NCBI GenBank assembly: GCA_022729575.1
Contig: DZAL01000038.1
Location: forward strand, 1 to 37,763
Source of the DNA: Thiomargarita sp.
GTDB taxonomy: Bacteria; Pseudomonadota; Gammaproteobacteria; Beggiatoales; Beggiatoaceae
Reading direction: 5' to 3'
DNA length: 37,763 bases
Made by a program: the position numbers and the translations under genes. Shown piece after piece: positions 4,822 through 37,663 of this stretch. The first letter of the stretch is position 1; each line of letters starts with the position of its first letter. The notes beneath the pieces were generated by a model. That model saw nothing but the letters and a program-made list of their open reading frames with translations. It was not told where the DNA came from and did not search any database.

Positions 4822-6786
4822 ATGAAAATATTAAAAAAATATTTATTGATGTTAATGTGCCTCTATTCCAGCATAGTGTTGGCAAGTGATGACATTAGCC
4901 AGCGAGAAAAACAACTGGCCACGGTGACTGGCCAACCAAGGATCGATATTTTAAATGAATTGGCAAATTTTTATGAAGAAAGTGCGCCTCAAAAAAGTAT
5001 TGAATACGGAAAAGAAGCATTCGAGTTAGCTACCGCCGCTTCCAATCAGCCAGTTATCGCGATGGTTCTCAACCAGCTCGGAGTGGCTTTTATTAATGCC
5101 GGTGATTATGATAATGCGTTAAACTCTCTGCTGAAATCTTTAGCTGTTCGTGAACAAATAGGCGATAACAAAGCCGTCGCCGAAACTTTCATCAATTTAG
5201 GAATCACTTATTGGCGACTCAGCGATTATGAAAAAGCCTTAGACTACTGTTTCAAAGCGTTACGTTTATACGAGGCAGTTAACTATTCGGAAGGCATTGC
5301 TAAGGCTTGGCATAATCTTGGGATTATTTATGATATAATGAAAGACCATGACAAGGGACTGGAGTTTCTCTTGAAAGCCTTGCGTCTGCGGGAAGTATTA
5401 GGAAACAAAGAGGCTATTGCCGATTCTTTAAATAATATTGGGATTGTCTATTATTACTCTGGTGAATATCAAAAAGCTTTAGAATATTACTCCAAGTCGT
5501 TGGAAATTCAAAAACAGATTAATAACCAAAAAGGCATTGCCAAATCTTTGAATAACATAGGTTTTGTCTATAATGACATGGAAAAATATGACGAAGCCTT
5601 AAAATATTTTACCGAGTCTTTAAAAATTTGGCAAGAGATTCAGAATAGCTTTGAAGTCGCCAATGTGTCCAATAACATTGGCAAAGTTTATATTGCCTTG
5701 CAACAGTATGCGAAGGCCGATTTCTATCTTCGGCAAGGACAGGTCTGGGCTCAGAAAAAAGGCCTCAAATCCAAAGATTTTTTGAGCGAAAATTATGAGT
5801 TATTCTCTAATCTTTATGCCGCTCAAGGAGATTATAAAAAAGCGCTGGAATTTTATAAAGATTCCGCCGACCTGATTAGTGAAATTTTCAAAGAGAAGAT
5901 TCAAAAAATTGCCTCGATTCAAACGCGCTATGAAACCGAAAAGAAACAACAAGAAATTGAACTGTTGAAAAAAGAAAATGATATTAAGCAATTGCAACTG
6001 GCACGTCAGCAATTGCGGCAAAATTCATTATTGGGCGGTTTTGGCTTAGTCATCGTTTTAGCGTTTGTCCTCTATCGCTTGTATCGTTTAACTAAAAAAG
6101 CTAATTTTGTTCTAGCGGAAGCTCATGCGGCCATTAAAATCGAAAAGGAAAAAGCGGATAAATTATTGCTAAATATTTTACCCTATCGTATTGCCAATGA
6201 TTTAAAGGAGAAGCATTACACTGAGCCGGAAAGTTTTGAAAATGTCACGGTTTATTTTTCCGATGTGGTAGGATTTACTAAATTAGCGTCTCACCTCGAG
6301 CCAAAAGCTTTAATTGACGAGTTAAACGAAATTTTTACGGCGTTTGATAACATTATCGAACAAAATCACGGTGAACGTATTAAAACTATTGGTGATGCCT
6401 ATTTATGTGTTTGTGGAATGCCGGAGCCAAATCCGCATCATGCCCAAAATATGGTACGCTCCGCCATTCAAATTGTTCACTATTTGACCGAGCGCAACCA
6501 ACATACTTCTCTCAAATGGCAAATTCGTATCGGCATTCATACCGGTAGCGTGGTGGGTGGCGTAGTTGGAATAAAAAAATATATTTACGATGTGTTTGGC
6601 GATACCATCAATACGGCTTCCCGGATGGAATCTCATTCACAACCGATGAAAATTAACATCTCAGAAACCACTTACCAACTCATTAAGGATGAATTTTCGG
6701 TAGTGGATCGGGGTATGTTTTCAGTCAAAGGCAAAGGAGAAATGAAAATGTATTTTGTAGAGCCAGACCTTAGTGAAATCCCGTAA
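4822..6786 (+). CDS. Exported-sensor TPR protein with class III adenylate cyclase domain
   Basis: The protein has a signal peptide or anchor (1-22) and about six TPR repeats of the NNIG.VY type (41-350). A coiled coil (355-400), a membrane segment (403-420) and a cyclase domain (about 440-650) follow. Asp481 (FSDVVGF) and Asp525 (IGDAY) bind the metals. Lys521 and Asp590 (YDVFG) are the adenine-selecting residues, and Asn597 and Arg601 are the transition-state pair, so it should make cAMP rather than cGMP. TPRs would lie outside the cytoplasm and sense a partner protein, inferred from topology. The ATG at 4822 gives a good signal sequence. It is followed by a MITE and then glgC on the same strand. 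Confidence 0.9.
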   Translation: MKILKKYLLMLMCLYSSIVLASDDISQREKQLATVTGQPRIDILNELANFYEESAPQKSIEYGKEAFELATAASNQPVIAMVLNQLGVAFINAGDYDNALNSLLKSLAVREQIGDNKAVAETFINLGITYWRLSDYEKALDYCFKALRLYEAVNYSEGIAKAWHNLGIIYDIMKDHDKGLEFLLKALRLREVLGNKEAIADSLNNIGIVYYYSGEYQKALEYYSKSLEIQKQINNQKGIAKSLNNIGFVYNDMEKYDEALKYFTESLKIWQEIQNSFEVANVSNNIGKVYIALQQYAKADFYLRQGQVWAQKKGLKSKDFLSENYELFSNLYAAQGDYKKALEFYKDSADLISEIFKEKIQKIASIQTRYETEKKQQEIELLKKENDIKQLQLARQQLRQNSLLGGFGLVIVLAFVLYRLYRLTKKANFVLAEAHAAIKIEKEKADKLLLNILPYRIANDLKEKHYTEPESFENVTVYFSDVVGFTKLASHLEPKALIDELNEIFTAFDNIIEQNHGERIKTIGDAYLCVCGMPEPNPHHAQNMVRSAIQIVHYLTERNQHTSLKWQIRIGIHTGSVVGGVVGIKKYIYDVFGDTINTASRMESHSQPMKINISETTYQLIKDEFSVVDRGMFSVKGKGEMKMYFVEPDLSEIP

Positions 6787-15719: not shown

Positions 15720-15833
15720 AGATTTGACAACTTTCGAAAAGTTGTCAAATCTTGGGTCCGGTGATTTTGACAATTTTCGAAATGACGAAATTTAAACTCC
15801 AGATTTGACAACTTTCGAAAAGTTGTCAAATCT
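15720..15833. repeat. Two family-A 33-bp palindromes plus a partial copy
   Basis: Perfect palindromes lie at 15720-15752 and 15801-15833 (arm AGATTTGACAACTTT, centre CGA). A decayed half copy, ATTTTGACAATTTTCGAAA, lies between them. Each full copy follows a TTTAA(G/A)C(G/T)CCAGATTTG context, so a segment of about 81 bp was probably duplicated. They lie upstream of the promoter at 15870. Confidence 0.9.
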
Positions 15834-29713: not shown

Positions 29714-30820
<1,107 letters not shown>

Positions 30821-30943: not shown

Positions 30944-33019
30944 TTATTTCTCTTCTAAAATATTCGTACCGTTCCAATCCGGTGCTAATTTATTAGGGTT
31001 TTGTTGATATTCTTGGCAACGCAACAGAAATAGATTAATAGATTTATCATTAGGATACTGGGTCTGTAAAGCCGAAAATATCTCCAATGCGTAGCTCCAA
31101 TCTTGTCGTAAATAAGCCGCTAGGCCCTGTTCACAATTCGCGCAAAATTCCTCTAGCTTCGGTAGCAGAGGTTCACCTTTTTCGGCGATTAATTCGTAAA
31201 TCTTAATCCCCACACTCTTTCCTTTCACGGCCACAATATCTAAGGGACGGCAATAAAATTGGTCGGCGACCAGTCGATGAGTGGCTTCACTGATAATAAT
31301 TTTAGTGCCATAAATCTTATTGGCGCCTTCCAAGCGGGAAGCCAGGTTAACACTATCACCGATGGCGGTATAATTCATCCGATTAGGGGAGCCGACGTTA
31401 CCAACGACCGCATTGCCGGTGTGTAGTCCAATTCGTGTGTATAAATGGGGTTTACCTTCCAAGGTCCACTGGGTATTCAGTTCTTCTAATTGATACTGAC
31501 AAAGCAATACCGCTCGACAGGCCCGGTGCGGCGCATCGCATAACTTGATCGGCGCACCCCAAAATGCCATGATGCTATCGCCAATGTATTTGTCAATCGT
31601 GCCTTTTTCCTGCATGATAATATTGGTCAAATGCTCAAAATATTCTGACAAATGTAGCATTAACTCTTGTGCTTTCATATTCTCGGAAATGCTAGTAAAA
31701 TTTTTAATATCCGAAAACATCACCGTCAATTCGCTTTCCTCTCCTCCTAGTCTCGCCTCTTGTTCTAGCTGAATCAGCTGACGTAATAGATCAGCAGGTA
31801 CATATTTACGGAATGATTGTAGTCCCTGCGCGGCGGAAAGCAAGACACTGTTCATCATGTCAATTTCTTTGATGCTAGAGTGTACCGGCTTCACTTCATC
31901 AAATAGCAAATCTTTGATTTTATTGGTTTCATGGACCAGTTGCACAATCGGTTTAGTTACTTTGGCAGCAAAGAAATATCCTAAAACAATGGCTATCGCC
32001 AAAATTCCCAAAGAGATTAATCCTACTTGCCAAAGCAGTGCATCGACCGCTCCTAATAAGTCGGTTTCAGGAATCACAACTAAAATTTGCCAATCCGAAA
32101 TAAACGATTGGGGAAAAGGAATGACGTTGATCAAGTAATTTTTACCTTCGGTACGAGTGGTAAATTTCCGCTGGCCAGTTTGAGCGTATCTCTGATAAGC
32201 CTGAGTAAGCCATAGTTCTTTTAATTCATTGAGATGTACTAGGCGGACTTCCCCGGTCACCGGATCAATTTTAGTCGACAGTGTACGGTCCGGATGAGCG
32301 ACCAGTTTACCTTTGGCCGTCATAATAAGTACCAGGCCATGTTTACTTACTTTCGATTTGGCCAAAAAATCCGAAAGACTGTGGAGCGGTGTGTTGATGC
32401 AGGAGACCGCAATTATTTGCCCAGCGTCATTTAAGACGGGATAAGAGGCGGAAATGCCAGGCGTTTGAGTGGTGGTAAAGATGTATACATCAGTCCAATA
32501 AATACGTGGTTGGGCTTGCGTATTTTTATACCAGGGACGGGTCCTGGGGTCAAAACTAGCATCACCATCTTCCTCGCGAAGGATGCGATAATTTTCATCG
32601 CGGATTAACCATTTTTCCACGGGTGGAGTGACTGAACGATCAATAAATCGGGTTGCCAAATTCGGCTCCCTTCGAACCTGCACGTAGCTACCCGCAGCAT
32701 CTGCCACAAAAATGGTTTGCACTTGTGGAAATACCAAAAGCTCTTCCCAGATATGTTTCCACAGTGCTTGATGGATTTTCATGATATTTGAATTATGCAC
32801 CAACTTACTAAGTGGTTTGAGTTGAATAGCAGGTACCTCCAAATAGTTGACTGTACGCACTATTAAATTGTCAGTCACTTCTTCAACCAGTTGCTCGGCA
32901 AGAGCGAGAGTGATTTTTTTAGCACCATAGTAGAAACCAAAACCAATACTTAATACCGTAATCAATAATAAAAATATAAATCTTTGGAGTACACTGGCCT
33001 TGAAACTTATTTTTTTCAT
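30944..33019 (-). CDS. Cache-sensor class III nucleotidyl cyclase (CyaC/class IIIb-like)
   Basis: The 691-residue protein has a membrane segment (about 10-33), a periplasmic dCache-type domain (about 40-315; FDPRTRPWY and GISASYPVLND), a second membrane segment (328-350) and a short HAMP-like stretch. A cyclase domain (about 430-620) follows, ending in a Cys-containing, TPR-like tail. Asp437 (FSDI) and Asp481 (IGDS) bind metals; Lys477 is present and Thr551 (YTAIG) replaces Asp at the base-selecting position. In the class III scheme this K/T pair marks class IIIb enzymes, several of them stimulated by bicarbonate. I chose ATG 33019. A TTG at 33025 is closer to an AAGG site. Confidence 0.88.
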   Translation of the reverse strand: MKKISFKASVLQRFIFLLLITVLSIGFGFYYGAKKITLALAEQLVEEVTDNLIVRTVNYLEVPAIQLKPLSKLVHNSNIMKIHQALWKHIWEELLVFPQVQTIFVADAAGSYVQVRREPNLATRFIDRSVTPPVEKWLIRDENYRILREEDGDASFDPRTRPWYKNTQAQPRIYWTDVYIFTTTQTPGISASYPVLNDAGQIIAVSCINTPLHSLSDFLAKSKVSKHGLVLIMTAKGKLVAHPDRTLSTKIDPVTGEVRLVHLNELKELWLTQAYQRYAQTGQRKFTTRTEGKNYLINVIPFPQSFISDWQILVVIPETDLLGAVDALLWQVGLISLGILAIAIVLGYFFAAKVTKPIVQLVHETNKIKDLLFDEVKPVHSSIKEIDMMNSVLLSAAQGLQSFRKYVPADLLRQLIQLEQEARLGGEESELTVMFSDIKNFTSISENMKAQELMLHLSEYFEHLTNIIMQEKGTIDKYIGDSIMAFWGAPIKLCDAPHRACRAVLLCQYQLEELNTQWTLEGKPHLYTRIGLHTGNAVVGNVGSPNRMNYTAIGDSVNLASRLEGANKIYGTKIIISEATHRLVADQFYCRPLDIVAVKGKSVGIKIYELIAEKGEPLLPKLEEFCANCEQGLAAYLRQDWSYALEIFSALQTQYPNDKSINLFLLRCQEYQQNPNKLAPDWNGTNILEEK

Positions 33020-33122
33020 TAACAATAATACCTTGCTCTTTTTTATGGACGGGATAATCAGAAAACTCTTCTTTCAGCTTAAAATAGTGATATACTTTTG
33101 TAATAATCTTGTCATAACATCG

Positions 33123-33155
33123 AGATTTGACAACTTTTCGAAAGTTGTCAAATCT
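33123..33155. repeat. Family-A 33-bp palindrome in the divergent promoter region
   Basis: Arm AGATTTGACAACTTT, centre TCG, complement arm. It lies between the divergent cyclase and LysM-binding protein genes, 104 bases upstream of the cyclase start. Confidence 0.9.
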
Positions 33156-33240
33156 AAAATTAACTCTAAAATCAAGGTCACTATTGGCATAAATTAACAT
33201 CAATGCCACCACTATTAGCATTATATTATAAATAATTGCC

Positions 33241-34884
33241 ATGAACAAATTATTGTTACTAACATCACTTTATTATTTGACTCATCTTGGGATAACAGCG
33301 GCCCTCGCCGCACCGGTTATAGCCACTCCCTCCATTATAACAGAAAACCATTGGTATGGGCCAGTAAAAGAAGGTCAATCACTATGGAATATTGCCAAAG
33401 AAATACGGCCCGATAAAAGTGTGAATCTCCAACAGGTATTAGTCGCCCTGTGGCAGTTGAATCCACAGGCATTTTCCCAGATTTGCCACCCGAGTACCTT
33501 GAAAATTCACGTTTTATTACAGATTCCTGAGTTATCAGCCATCGCCGCTATCTCACCCGCGGCGGCTCTAACTGCAATTCAACAGCAAAACCAGGCACGG
33601 AAAAAATTCTCTCCACACGGTATAAATTCGCCTTGTCCACCACTTAAAGTTCCAACTTTATCGGTTGAATCAAAAACGGAAGTTTTGGCGAAACCAAAAA
33701 CTTCTCCTCCTACCAGTAAATCAAAGGCGACTATAGAAAAATCAACTGTAGAAAAATCAACGACTGAGGATTCTGCAACTCTATCTTGGTTGAAATTAGG
33801 AGAAGAGGTGTTACCAAATTGGCAAGCCGTCATTTTACCGGAGAACGATTCGATTATGACCATCTCTCCTAAATGGAAAAACACCTCTGAATCACTGACC
33901 AAAAAGATTCTGGGTTTGATTCCAAAACCGTCAGATAGCTACAGTTTGGCCAGTTCCAAATTACTAGAAGTGCTTTATGAGGAAGGAATTTATGCCGAGA
34001 TTACTTTGGTAAATTTTAATAAAGATAATGAATTAGGCAAAAAAGCCTTACAGTTGGCTGAACAAAAGAATATGGATTTAATTTTTTCTATGGGGTCAGA
34101 ATCAGCGGCGTTTCTTCACGAATTTTATAATGGGGGTAAAATTTCCGCCGTCACTTGTACCAATAAAGACCCCGTGCTGTTGCAGCAAGTGGCTGATTAC
34201 GACAAGGGTAGCGGTACTAATATTGCTTATACTTCCCTTAACGTACCTATCAACATTCAAACCAACTATTTAATGGACTTGATGCCTGGTCTGAAAAATC
34301 TAGGCATTCTATATGACCGTAATCATACTCAAGTGGTGGTCACTGAGGTCATTCCCACGCGGAACAAACTATTGGAAATGAAAGTAAAAGTGATAAATAT
34401 TGAAGTGACCTCAGCAGAAACCGCTAAAGGAGAGTTACTCAAAAATATTCCTGCCGCTATTACCGTCATGCAACAGAATGATCCTGAATTACGACACAGT
34501 GTGTTTTGGGTCACTAGCAGCACGCTAGTATTCGCTAACATGGCCACCATTGCCCAGGTAAGCGGTAAGGTGGCCGTGCTCGGCTCCATTCCGAATATTG
34601 TGACCGGCGGTGATGACAGTGCAGTGATGGCGATTGGCATCGACCGCCGAAATAATGCTTATTTAGCCAGCATTTACGCCGTAAAAATTTTAACAGGACA
34701 AGCTAAAGCGGGAGAATTGAAAGTAGGGGTGGTGACACCGCCAGATATTGCTATCAGTTTCCGGGCGGCTCAAAAAATTGGCCTTGATATTCCTTTTCAA
34801 TTGTTTGAAAGTGCTTCTTTTATTTATGGTTATGTAGGGAATAGTGCTCGTTCTTTTGGTCATGATGCCATCTCCTCAAAATAA
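33241..34884 (+). CDS. Fusion of FimV-like LysM domain and ABC_sub_bind solute-binding domain
   Basis: The 547-residue protein has a signal peptide (1-24). Next is a FimV/TspA-type LysM domain (about 36-95; WYGPVKEGQSLWNIAKEIRP...QVLVALWQLNPQAF), a Thr/Ser/Lys linker (130-185) with the repeat EKSTVEKSTTE, and an ABC_sub_bind (PF04392-like) domain (about 220-545). LysM binds peptidoglycan. ABC_sub_bind proteins bind small solutes such as amino acids for ABC transporters. No permease or ATPase genes lie nearby. The next gene is an MFS protein with two sensor-like regions, so this may feed or signal to it. The combination is unusual, and I know no characterised example. Confidence 0.8.
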   Translation: MNKLLLLTSLYYLTHLGITAALAAPVIATPSIITENHWYGPVKEGQSLWNIAKEIRPDKSVNLQQVLVALWQLNPQAFSQICHPSTLKIHVLLQIPELSAIAAISPAAALTAIQQQNQARKKFSPHGINSPCPPLKVPTLSVESKTEVLAKPKTSPPTSKSKATIEKSTVEKSTTEDSATLSWLKLGEEVLPNWQAVILPENDSIMTISPKWKNTSESLTKKILGLIPKPSDSYSLASSKLLEVLYEEGIYAEITLVNFNKDNELGKKALQLAEQKNMDLIFSMGSESAAFLHEFYNGGKISAVTCTNKDPVLLQQVADYDKGSGTNIAYTSLNVPINIQTNYLMDLMPGLKNLGILYDRNHTQVVVTEVIPTRNKLLEMKVKVINIEVTSAETAKGELLKNIPAAITVMQQNDPELRHSVFWVTSSTLVFANMATIAQVSGKVAVLGSIPNIVTGGDDSAVMAIGIDRRNNAYLASIYAVKILTGQAKAGELKVGVVTPPDIAISFRAAQKIGLDIPFQLFESASFIYGYVGNSARSFGHDAISSK

Positions 34885-34892
34885 TGACTACG

Positions 34893-35017
34893 AGATTTGA
34901 CCACTGGTTGAAAGTTGTCAAATCTAAAGTTGCCCCCAAGATTTGACAACTTTCAAAAAGTTGTCAAATCTGAAGTTGCCCCCAAGATTTGACAACTTTC
35001 AAAAAGTTGTCAAATCT
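34893..35017. repeat. Three family-A 33-bp palindromes upstream of the MFS gene
   Basis: Copies start at 34893 (mutated left arm), 34939 and 34985, with a regular 46-base step and the spacer AAGTTGCCCCCA in part repeated. The last two can be read in the MFS frame from 34943 without a stop, adding residues such as RFDNFQKVVKSK. They separate the binding-protein gene from the MFS gene by 175 bases. Confidence 0.9.
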
Positions 35018-35059
35018 AAAGTTGTCAAATCTGAATTCCCTCCCCAATTATTAACAACT

Positions 35060-37663
35060 ATGAAACTAAAAAAGATTTTAATCAGCTCCCCCATCATTCT
35101 CATCCTAATTTTAACCATGTTGCTACTAGAATTCATTGGCTACGGCGAGGCTAAACGCAAATATACTCAATTTCAACTGACCAGATTAGCGACGCAAGGA
35201 GAAATTATCAAGCATGAATTTGATTCATACTTACATGCCGGCCTACCACTCAAACAATTCAGCGGTTTTTCTAACCAAAGCGAAAGACTATTGCTTTCAG
35301 ACGACAGTATTCAAGCGATTCAAGTCACCGATAACCAAAACAAAATGGTCTTTCTCAATGGGCAACATCGCCTCACTTTAGATAAATTAGAAGAAATACT
35401 CTCTAGTCGCCAATATTTTTCTAGTCAGTTTACGCTTGAACAAAACCACCGGGCTGAAGAATCGGCAACCAGTTTTCGCGTTATTTTACCACTCGACACT
35501 CGTTTTGGTGTAGTCGGTCAGGTCATTATCGAGTCCGAAAAAGAGGCATTATTTCAAGTCTTAAATAAGCAATTTTGGTATGTCTTCTATGCTGTTATCA
35601 CTCTAACCGTTATTTTTATTCTGCTGATAGTCATTTATGAAATTTATTTTGCCAACCACAAAACCAGAGAACGTTTCTTAAAGACCACTTATATCATTGA
35701 ATTTATAGTAATGTCCATGATCATTTCCGTAGTCATTTTTCAGGTCTATGAATATGGCGCCCGTGCCAGCACTAAGGCTCTATCTAATTCTATGTCACAA
35801 CGATTATCAGCTATTTTAGAACTAGGTATTCGCATCGAGGACATCAGCAGAATCAACCAGACGTTTCAGGATTATAAAAAAAATAATCCACATATTAATC
35901 AAATTGCCTTAACTCGAAATAACATCGTCATGTTTCACACCGATGAGCAAGTCATTGGTAAACCCTATCAATCGGCACCTAACAGTTTTGAATATGTCGT
36001 GCCTTTAGGAAACACTGAGGAGAAGCAACTATTTCGCGTAGCCGTCAGCATTCCAGTTAAAATAGTGATGAGTGCGATTTGGAGCAGTGCGAAAGCGTTT
36101 ATCGTATTGTTTATCGCTTGTGGTTTGATTTCATTCATCTTTTTAGATGCAGGCACGACCTTACTAACGGTCCGGGAAAGATCGAAACAGGTCACTGCGC
36201 TACCAGAGTCCCCAGAGTCCCCACTCACCAACCTTCCTTTTAGCAACCCTGGCAATGTCATTCCGCCGTTGAACACAGCGGCACCAAAGAAACTTTCGTT
36301 CACTTCTAATCAAAGTAAGCCGTTGACTCCACCGCAGCCAAGGGCGATCGTTTCAGAGGATGATACCCGTTTTCAAATCGGTTTACGACTGGTCAAACCA
36401 GCCTATTTTCTAATCGTCTTCGTCAATGCCTTATCGGTATCGTTTTTACCGCAATTGGCTAACAGTATGGCGGAACAATCAGGCTCTGGCTTCGCTTCGG
36501 CCAGTCTCCCCTTCAGTATTTTTTATACTTGGTTTGCTCTCGTCCTCATTCCTGCGGGTTACTATGCGGAAAAAGGTAATTTGAAAAAGCTGATGGCAGT
36601 GGGCTTTTTATCCGAAGTGATTGGCCTAACCTTAGTAGCCCTGACCGCAGATTTTTGGATCCTCACGGTAGGTCGAATGTTCTCTGGCATCGGTCAGGGC
36701 GTATTTTTAATTGGACTGCAATCTTATATTTTAGCCATCACCCCTAAAAACAAGCAAACACAAGGCGGCGCGGTTAAAGTGACGGGCCGCAATGCGGGAA
36801 TGATAGCTGGCACCTCAATTGGCGCCTTGTTATTTGTCTATCTATCGTACCAAACTTTATTTATGATAGCCTCAGTGTTAACCTTGTTGGCAAGTGTTTA
36901 CCTCTGGATATTAGTGCCAGGGGTAGAAGAAATTACTCATAAACCATTGCAGAGTAAAGCGACAGAAAAGATTTCGTTACTACAATTCGTTCGCGTGTTC
37001 AAAGATTTTGAATTTCTCCACACCCTAATTTTAATTGGTTTAACCTCGAAAATAGCCATTGCCGGTGTTGTGATGTTTGCCGTACCTCTGGTGTTATCCA
37101 AAACCGGCTTTGCCAGCGAAGATATTGGATTAGGATTAATGCTCTTTTACATTTCCTCAATGGTAGTAACCCACTACATTTCGCAATGGGTGGACCATTT
37201 AGGACAAACGCGCTGGGTACTGTCAATCAGTTCACTTCTCGGTGGTTTAGGGATTCTATTATTTGGATTGTTAGGTGCTAGTCCCTGGGCCGGACCAAAT
37301 ATTCCTGGCATCTTGACGTTAAGCTCTCTCGCCAGCAATTTCCATGAAACACTGACCAGCTTAGGCTTACTGCGCTTTGAAAACTACTTACTTTACTCCT
37401 TCCTAATTTTGGCGGGAATTTCCAATGGCCTGTCTACCGCGCCGCTGCTGACTCATATCAATAAAACTGCCGTGGCGGAAAAATATGGTCATAAATCGAT
37501 CAGTGCGACTTACACTTTCCTCGAACGCGGTGGTCATATTCTTGGTCCCATCGTGGTCAGTCAATTATTAGCTCTCGACCACCAAAATACTTTAGGGCTG
37601 ACTTTATTTGGTATCGTGATGATGGTTAGCGGATTTTGGTTTCAGCTATGGTCTCGGAAATAG
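35060..37663 (+). CDS. MFS transporter with two N-terminal extracytoplasmic sensor-like loops
   Basis: From ATG 35060 the protein has 867 residues. Helices lie near 9-27, 172-195, 209-228 and 340-362. They enclose two extracytoplasmic regions (28-171 and 229-339) that resemble Cache-type sensors (NIVMFHTDEQVIGKPYQSAPN near 288-308). A Pro/Ser-rich linker (375-435) then leads to a 12-helix MFS domain (about 445-860; SGIGQGVFLIG, GRNAGMIAGTSIG). The substrate is unknown. Frames extending to 34943 are stop-free only because they cross palindromes, so the natural start is probably at 35060, where a hydrophobic helix begins. A LysM-ABC_sub_bind protein is directly upstream. Coupled sensing and transport is inferred. 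Confidence 0.8.
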   Translation: MKLKKILISSPIILILILTMLLLEFIGYGEAKRKYTQFQLTRLATQGEIIKHEFDSYLHAGLPLKQFSGFSNQSERLLLSDDSIQAIQVTDNQNKMVFLNGQHRLTLDKLEEILSSRQYFSSQFTLEQNHRAEESATSFRVILPLDTRFGVVGQVIIESEKEALFQVLNKQFWYVFYAVITLTVIFILLIVIYEIYFANHKTRERFLKTTYIIEFIVMSMIISVVIFQVYEYGARASTKALSNSMSQRLSAILELGIRIEDISRINQTFQDYKKNNPHINQIALTRNNIVMFHTDEQVIGKPYQSAPNSFEYVVPLGNTEEKQLFRVAVSIPVKIVMSAIWSSAKAFIVLFIACGLISFIFLDAGTTLLTVRERSKQVTALPESPESPLTNLPFSNPGNVIPPLNTAAPKKLSFTSNQSKPLTPPQPRAIVSEDDTRFQIGLRLVKPAYFLIVFVNALSVSFLPQLANSMAEQSGSGFASASLPFSIFYTWFALVLIPAGYYAEKGNLKKLMAVGFLSEVIGLTLVALTADFWILTVGRMFSGIGQGVFLIGLQSYILAITPKNKQTQGGAVKVTGRNAGMIAGTSIGALLFVYLSYQTLFMIASVLTLLASVYLWILVPGVEEITHKPLQSKATEKISLLQFVRVFKDFEFLHTLILIGLTSKIAIAGVVMFAVPLVLSKTGFASEDIGLGLMLFYISSMVVTHYISQWVDHLGQTRWVLSISSLLGGLGILLFGLLGASPWAGPNIPGILTLSSLASNFHETLTSLGLLRFENYLLYSFLILAGISNGLSTAPLLTHINKTAVAEKYGHKSISATYTFLERGGHILGPIVVSQLLALDHQNTLGLTLFGIVMMVSGFWFQLWSRK

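Follow-up and report, generated by a model that had tools for sequence, protein, structure and literature searches.

A Conserved Binding Protein and Sensor-MFS Gene Pair with a Linked Adenylate Cyclase in Thiomargarita: A Possible Envelope Signalling-and-Transport Module

The Locus and Its Genes

The stretch of DNA analyzed here, called the window, is a single contig of 37,763 nucleotides from the 6.57-Mb genome of a Thiomargarita sp., whose closest relatives carry the labels Thiotrichaceae and Thiomargarita MAGs. Near one end of the window lie three neighboring genes and several copies of a palindromic repeat, with the following layout:

30944..33019, minus strand: predicted class III adenylate cyclase with an N-terminal dCache_1 domain, two TM helices, and a TPR-like C-terminal tail (Pfam, orthologue alignment)
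33123..33155, no strand: 33-nt palindromic repeat of a genome-wide type, in the divergent intergenic region (repeat count)
33241..34884, plus strand: periplasmic binding protein with a signal peptide, a FimV-type LysM (residues 47–119), a linker, and an ABC_sub_bind domain (residues 233–525) (Pfam, model)
34939..35017, no strand: two perfect palindrome copies between the binding-protein and MFS genes, with a degenerate third copy at ~34893
35060..37663, plus strand: sensor-MFS fusion of 867 amino acids (Pfam, orthologue alignment, model, fold matches, hhalign)

A preliminary description of this DNA had reported a Cache-cyclase, a LysM-bearing binding protein, and a sensor-MFS fusion as adjacent genes, and all three are real and lie close to where they had been placed. 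They are indeed adjacent; however, the cyclase is divergent from the plus-strand pair and hence falls outside any operon shared with it in the window genome.

Two gene starts were revised from the uncorrected open reading frames (ORFs), which span 30944–33025 on the minus strand for the cyclase and 34943–37663 on the plus strand for the MFS protein. Its orthologues place the probable start of the cyclase at ATG 33019, not TTG 33025. The start of the MFS gene was moved to ATG 35060 because codons 1–39 of the ORF are read-through of the palindrome, yielding a spurious N-terminus, and because the orthologues, once aligned, begin at the Met encoded there. The loop boundaries given previously for this protein (28–171 and 229–339) already count from the 35060 start.

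The repeat itself is a 33-nt palindrome (AGATTTGACAACTTT-3 nt-AAAGTTGTCAAATCT) found in 1,321 perfect copies genome-wide, frequently grouped in clusters with even spacing; its reversed control has zero copies in the genome. Ten copies fall in the window, five between 2378 and 2610 and the others at 15720, 15801, 33123, 34939, and 34985.

Two other genes of the window deserve mention. One, at 4822–6786, is a second cyclase gene, whose product joins TPR repeats to a class III catalytic domain. The other, at 29714–30820, encodes an RND-type periplasmic adaptor (TIGR01730, E = 4e-78) and adjoins the cyclase gene; no neighboring pump gene was seen, and the adaptor was not seen in related loci.

The Binding Protein

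The binding protein belongs to the ABC_sub_bind family (PF04392, E = 2.2e-13, 50.5 bits against a gathering threshold of 25.9) and is encoded by the only gene of this family in the window genome. Its LysM is of the FimV/HubP type, scoring 57.7 bits against FimV_core (TIGR03505, E = 7.7e-16; cut-off 43.45). The preliminary description had singled out this fusion of a binding domain with a FimV-type LysM and the lack of an accompanying ABC transporter. The fusion stands, and so does the second point among the window ORFs scanned: neither there nor among the scanned neighbor genes of related loci was an ABC permease or ATPase identified.

The structure model has a pLDDT of 83, mostly above 90 in the binding domain, which adopts a two-lobe fold with CD0873, VC_1101, and SP1069/TrpX as its best PDB matches; the PDB entries matched include 6hnj, 3lft, and 3lkv. 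The ligands of CD0873, VC_1101, and TrpX are tyrosine, phenylalanine, and tryptophan (PMC6816091). The window protein scores 41.3 bits, and its orthologues 36–60, against the TrpX equivalog model NF041285, far below the cut-off of 390. The family has invariant signatures of its own, TNKDPV and GIDRR(N/S)NA, and so the ligand cannot be transferred from these three proteins.

Wall attachment is a variable trait. Six of 17 orthologues match FimV_core; in one of these the LysM lies in an ORF of its own, and three score under the curated cut-off. In one binding protein (L043 7441–9018) a RodZ_C N-terminus replaces the LysM. Tethering to the wall or envelope is thus optional rather than defining, and the earlier proposal that the solute is captured at the cell wall is not supported as a general trait.

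The Sensor-MFS Fusion

The transporter protein carries ~430 extra residues at its N-terminus and is arranged as a TM helix, loop 28–171, two TM helices, loop 229–339, a further TM helix, a flexible linker (380–431), and an MFS domain (433–867); both loops, which precede the MFS half, are periplasmic. The MFS half matches MFS_1 (E = 2e-28, 99.8 bits) and is modeled with 12 TM helices (pLDDT 77 for the whole sensor-MFS model). Its closest folds are VMAT, NorA, SotB, and YajR (VIA-align Z ~34–38). Residues typical of active transporters are invariant in 15 orthologues, among them the charged E504, R539, D712, E822, R823, and H826, of which E504 and R539 are motif A-/B-like. By sequence and model, the domain is a predicted DHA1-like MFS carrier. 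Of the 13 genomes searched for the sensor-MFS gene, 12 have just one copy.

Cache/PDC domains are built from a long helix, a short helix, strands, and a long helix, in this order. Both loops are modeled with the same order of elements; Pfam gave no Cache family match in either loop of the window protein. PDB sequence searches with the sensor profiles returned HAMP matches or noise only, and whole-model fold searches were dominated by the MFS part. Matches to sCache_3_2, dCache_1, ArlS_N, and PhoQ_Sensor, all below cut-off, were obtained in relatives where the parts are split, including a sub-threshold dCache_1 match in one separate sensor protein homologous to the loops. We call the loops “Cache-like” because Pfam support is sub-threshold and comes solely from split relatives. 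The sensor-like character previously assigned to them is thus supported by the element order in the model and by homology to separate sensors but not at the Pfam threshold.

These split relatives, found in six more genomes, are distant and consist of a separate membrane sensor protein, a sensor-MFS, and an ABC_sub_bind protein, with the MFS gene directly preceding the ABC_sub_bind gene; on one short contig (L102), the separate sensor gene was absent from view. Most split-form sensor-MFS proteins have a sub-threshold HAMP match. By hhalign, window residues 1–200 match the separate sensor (98.6%), residues 200–372 match the sensor half of the split sensor-MFS (94.3%), and its MFS half aligns with that of the window protein (100%). 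From these region-by-region matches, the window protein is a once-separate sensor protein fused to a sensor-MFS. FGE-sulfatase was considered as a further partner and rejected, being present in three split-form loci only and not in L100 or L102.

A second, unrelated group of sensor-MFS fusions, ~1000 amino acids long with a large N-terminal extracytoplasmic part, was encountered at L049 5725–8751, L050 4235–7354, and L048 6382–9615. The L049 protein is the copy in the window genome (contig C162), where it adjoins a kinase-AAA-GAF-cyclase. This family was set aside, having no ABC_sub_bind link and neighbors that vary between genomes.

The resemblance of the MFS half to the DHA1/VMAT/NorA/SotB antiporters, together with the retained motif A-/B-like E504 and R539, raises the alternative of regulated efflux. 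Here, the MFS would export a compound that is toxic or serves as a signal, which the binding protein and loops would sense in the periplasm so as to switch on the exporter, and the cyclase would act as a parallel alarm; the RND adaptor gene beside the cyclase would also fit. However, binding proteins serve high-affinity uptake or sensing, the adaptor was not seen in related loci, and the fold says nothing on direction. We know of no exporter that uses a binding protein in such a manner, and we consider efflux unlikely.

The Adenylate Cyclase

The third protein combines dCache_1 (PF02743, E = 2.8e-18, 66.8 bits against a cut-off of 45) with Guanylate_cyc (E = 2e-24). D439, K479, D483, T553, N560, and R564 are invariant across 10 cyclase orthologues. 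In class III enzymes, such residues make up the metal, substrate, and transition-state positions, with two metal Asp, a substrate-defining Lys and Thr, and an Asn and Arg; Lys479 with Thr553 is the adenylate-specific class IIIb pattern. With all six catalytic positions retained, the protein is, on its residues, a predicted class III adenylate cyclase.

The dCache domain aligns with PctA-type structures. The binding motif of dCache_1AA and dCache_1AM domains has a terminal Asp, represented by D173 in PctA and D235 in PctD (PMC10104139). Here, the window protein has Asn211 and most orthologues likewise have Asn, so neither an amino acid nor an amine ligand is indicated for the cyclase dCache.

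Conservation of the Pair and of Its Link to the Cyclase

A scan of ~85,000 species genomes with four binding proteins yielded 14 loci, three of them in the relatives G001, G011, and G022, where the pair is adjacent and in unchanged order, and two further gammaproteobacterial genomes bring the total for the pair to 17. The loci came from the alignment-based scan; a single-sequence scan of genome contigs gave none. In all 17 orthologous loci, the binding-protein gene is followed immediately, on the same strand and in the same order, by the sensor-MFS gene. A lack of conserved proximity in related genomes was among the refuting conditions set for the preliminary description, and it does not apply. 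The module is rare (four of the 369 genomes sampled from the class), and its carriers are labeled Gammaproteobacteria, SAR324, a deltaproteobacterial MAG, a Spirochaetaceae MAG, and a “Cyclobacteriaceae” MAG. In one Spirochaetaceae genome, the pair recurs as adjacent paralogues accompanied by an extra ABC_sub_bind gene; the paralogous operon (L109 3663–10973) comprises a second ABC_sub_bind gene, a D-Ala-D-Ala-ligase-like gene, a sensor-MFS gene, and a binding-protein gene. Because of the genetic linkage, the binding protein and sensor-MFS very likely act together.

An orthologue of the cyclase, full-length at 45–68% identity, is present in 10 of 15 pair genomes tested and adjoins the pair in nine, which span Gammaproteobacteria, SAR324, a “Deltaproteobacteria” MAG, and a Spirochaetaceae MAG. 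The cyclase gene is divergent from the pair in the window, convergent in G001 (with one small gene between) and L052, downstream in G022 (where it shares 4 nt with the MFS gene), L057, and L061, and upstream in L055, L056, and L060; in G011, it is unlinked and lies elsewhere in the genome. Thus, gene orders have been rearranged while proximity was retained, which argues for selection on linkage. In the five remaining pair genomes, only generic cyclases, or none, passed the cut-off, and cAMP is therefore not essential to the pair. In the searched relatives lacking the pair, no cyclase orthologue was found, the best full-length match having 33% identity. The association of the three genes, with the pair adjacent in 17 of 17 loci and the cyclase linked in nine, is far beyond chance. 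Distances of the three proteins also co-vary (r = 0.79–0.90; Mantel p = 0.0002 where the cyclase is compared), a correlation computed with no control gene and for which shared descent is an alternative explanation. In addition, an unrelated dCache-HAMP-cyclase gene heads the split-form operon L100, with 6 nt between its end and the sensor gene; here a cyclase has joined this type of transporter independently.

On these data, one may ask if the pair is the functional unit and the cyclase merely a frequent neighbor with an independent signal. The five genomes without an orthologue and the unlinked gene of G011 are consistent with such independence. Against this stand the nine linked loci in four gene orders, the failure to find an orthologue in the searched relatives without the pair, and the separate cyclase of L100, making independence improbable. 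The cyclase is likely part of the same system in most carriers.

Equally improbable is that the MFS senses but no longer transports, in the manner of UhpC, so that the binding protein, loops, and MFS would form a pure receptor signalling via the cyclase or other proteins. The two sensor domains preceding the MFS, the HAMP-like linker in the split form, and the recurrence of cyclase neighbors all suit a receptor, but the invariance of the active-transporter residues in 15 orthologues and the lack of an orthologous cyclase in a third of the genomes do not.

Other neighbors recur on a smaller scale. A SulP-STAS-cNMP_binding gene lies directly upstream of the cyclase in the SAR324 and deltaproteobacterial loci (L055 3053–5278 and L056 2851–5076); it was dismissed as a general cAMP effector, its close homologues being confined to G041 and G042. 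T6SS genes sit beside the pair at L059 3521–7795 (TssM, kinase), L062 8142–8825, and L101 10099–13056 (VgrG-like). A T6SS role is not general, as IcmF_C was found in two of 20 carrier genomes searched (G043 and G045) and not in the window genome.

A Model for the Module

Our preferred reading, to which we assign a probability of roughly 0.45, is that the three genes form one envelope signalling-and-transport module in which the binding protein gates the sensor-MFS and the cyclase reports as cAMP. The proposed scheme can be set out in five steps. (i) Capture: a soluble TrpX-like periplasmic binding protein, here LysM-tethered to peptidoglycan, would bind a small solute. (ii) Docking: the loaded protein would dock on, or pass its solute to, the two Cache-like domains fronting the MFS. 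(iii) Gating: docking would gate the MFS, which may use the proton gradient to move this solute or a related one. (iv) Reporting: the cyclase dCache would read the same solute, or the state of the sensor-MFS, and report it as cAMP. (v) Response: cAMP would act via CRP-like and other cNMP-binding proteins of the cell; the window genome encodes seven cNMP-binding domains. The simplest reading would be that the liganded protein docks on the loops and the MFS is gated, and uptake is one direction in which transport might run. To our knowledge, the drug:H+ antiporters (exporters) that this MFS resembles do not usually receive their substrate from a binding protein. As a speculation, the recurrent wall-linked extras (LysM, RodZ_C, and the D-Ala-D-Ala-ligase-like gene of L109) would fit a wall-derived ligand.

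If correct, the model describes a new coupling of solute capture, transport, and second-messenger output through an MFS with sensors and a cyclase. The module joins proteins that annotation would separate (an ABC substrate-binding protein, an MFS transporter, and an adenylate cyclase) into a defined three-protein set that is directly testable.

Comparison with Known Systems

Each part of the module is known singly; the combination is apparently undescribed, with no account of it found in the open-licence literature searched. Binding proteins feed ABC, TRAP, and TTT transporters. As in TRAP and TTT systems, a periplasmic binding protein is genetically tied here to a secondary transporter. However, the binding protein is of a different family, and an MFS with Cache-like loops serves as the membrane protein; the partner is MFS_1, not DctQ/DctM or TctA/TctB, which places the system outside both groups. 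It is conceivable, if somewhat unlikely, that the module stands next to TRAP and TTT as a third type among the secondary transporters that depend on a binding protein, namely an MFS with Cache-like receptors for a liganded binding protein, coupled to cAMP in many species. Uptake (or efflux) and signalling would then share one receptor.

The binding protein shares its fold (Foldseek TM ~0.71–0.78 on target) and sequence family with the aromatic amino-acid binding proteins TrpX, CD0873, and VC_1101. Unlike these, it has its own signature, is encoded in a window with no ABC permease or ATPase identified, has an optional LysM or RodZ_C N-terminus, and is followed by a sensor-MFS gene. Its LysM resembles that of FimV/HubP in matching TIGR03505 above the curated cut-off, but is joined to a solute-binding domain and occurs in only six of 17 orthologues.

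The cyclase has the domain order and the Lys/Thr substrate-defining pair of class IIIb cyclases with a periplasmic dCache, whereas the terminal Asp of amino-acid and amine sensors is Asn in most orthologues, and the gene is linked to those of a binding protein and a sensor-MFS. Finally, a transporter fold is likewise combined with signalling in the MFS protein UhpC and in the SLC5/STAC histidine kinases CbrA and CrbS. In contrast to these, the fusion described here has extracytoplasmic, N-terminal sensors, lacks a kinase domain, and comes with a binding protein and a separate cyclase.
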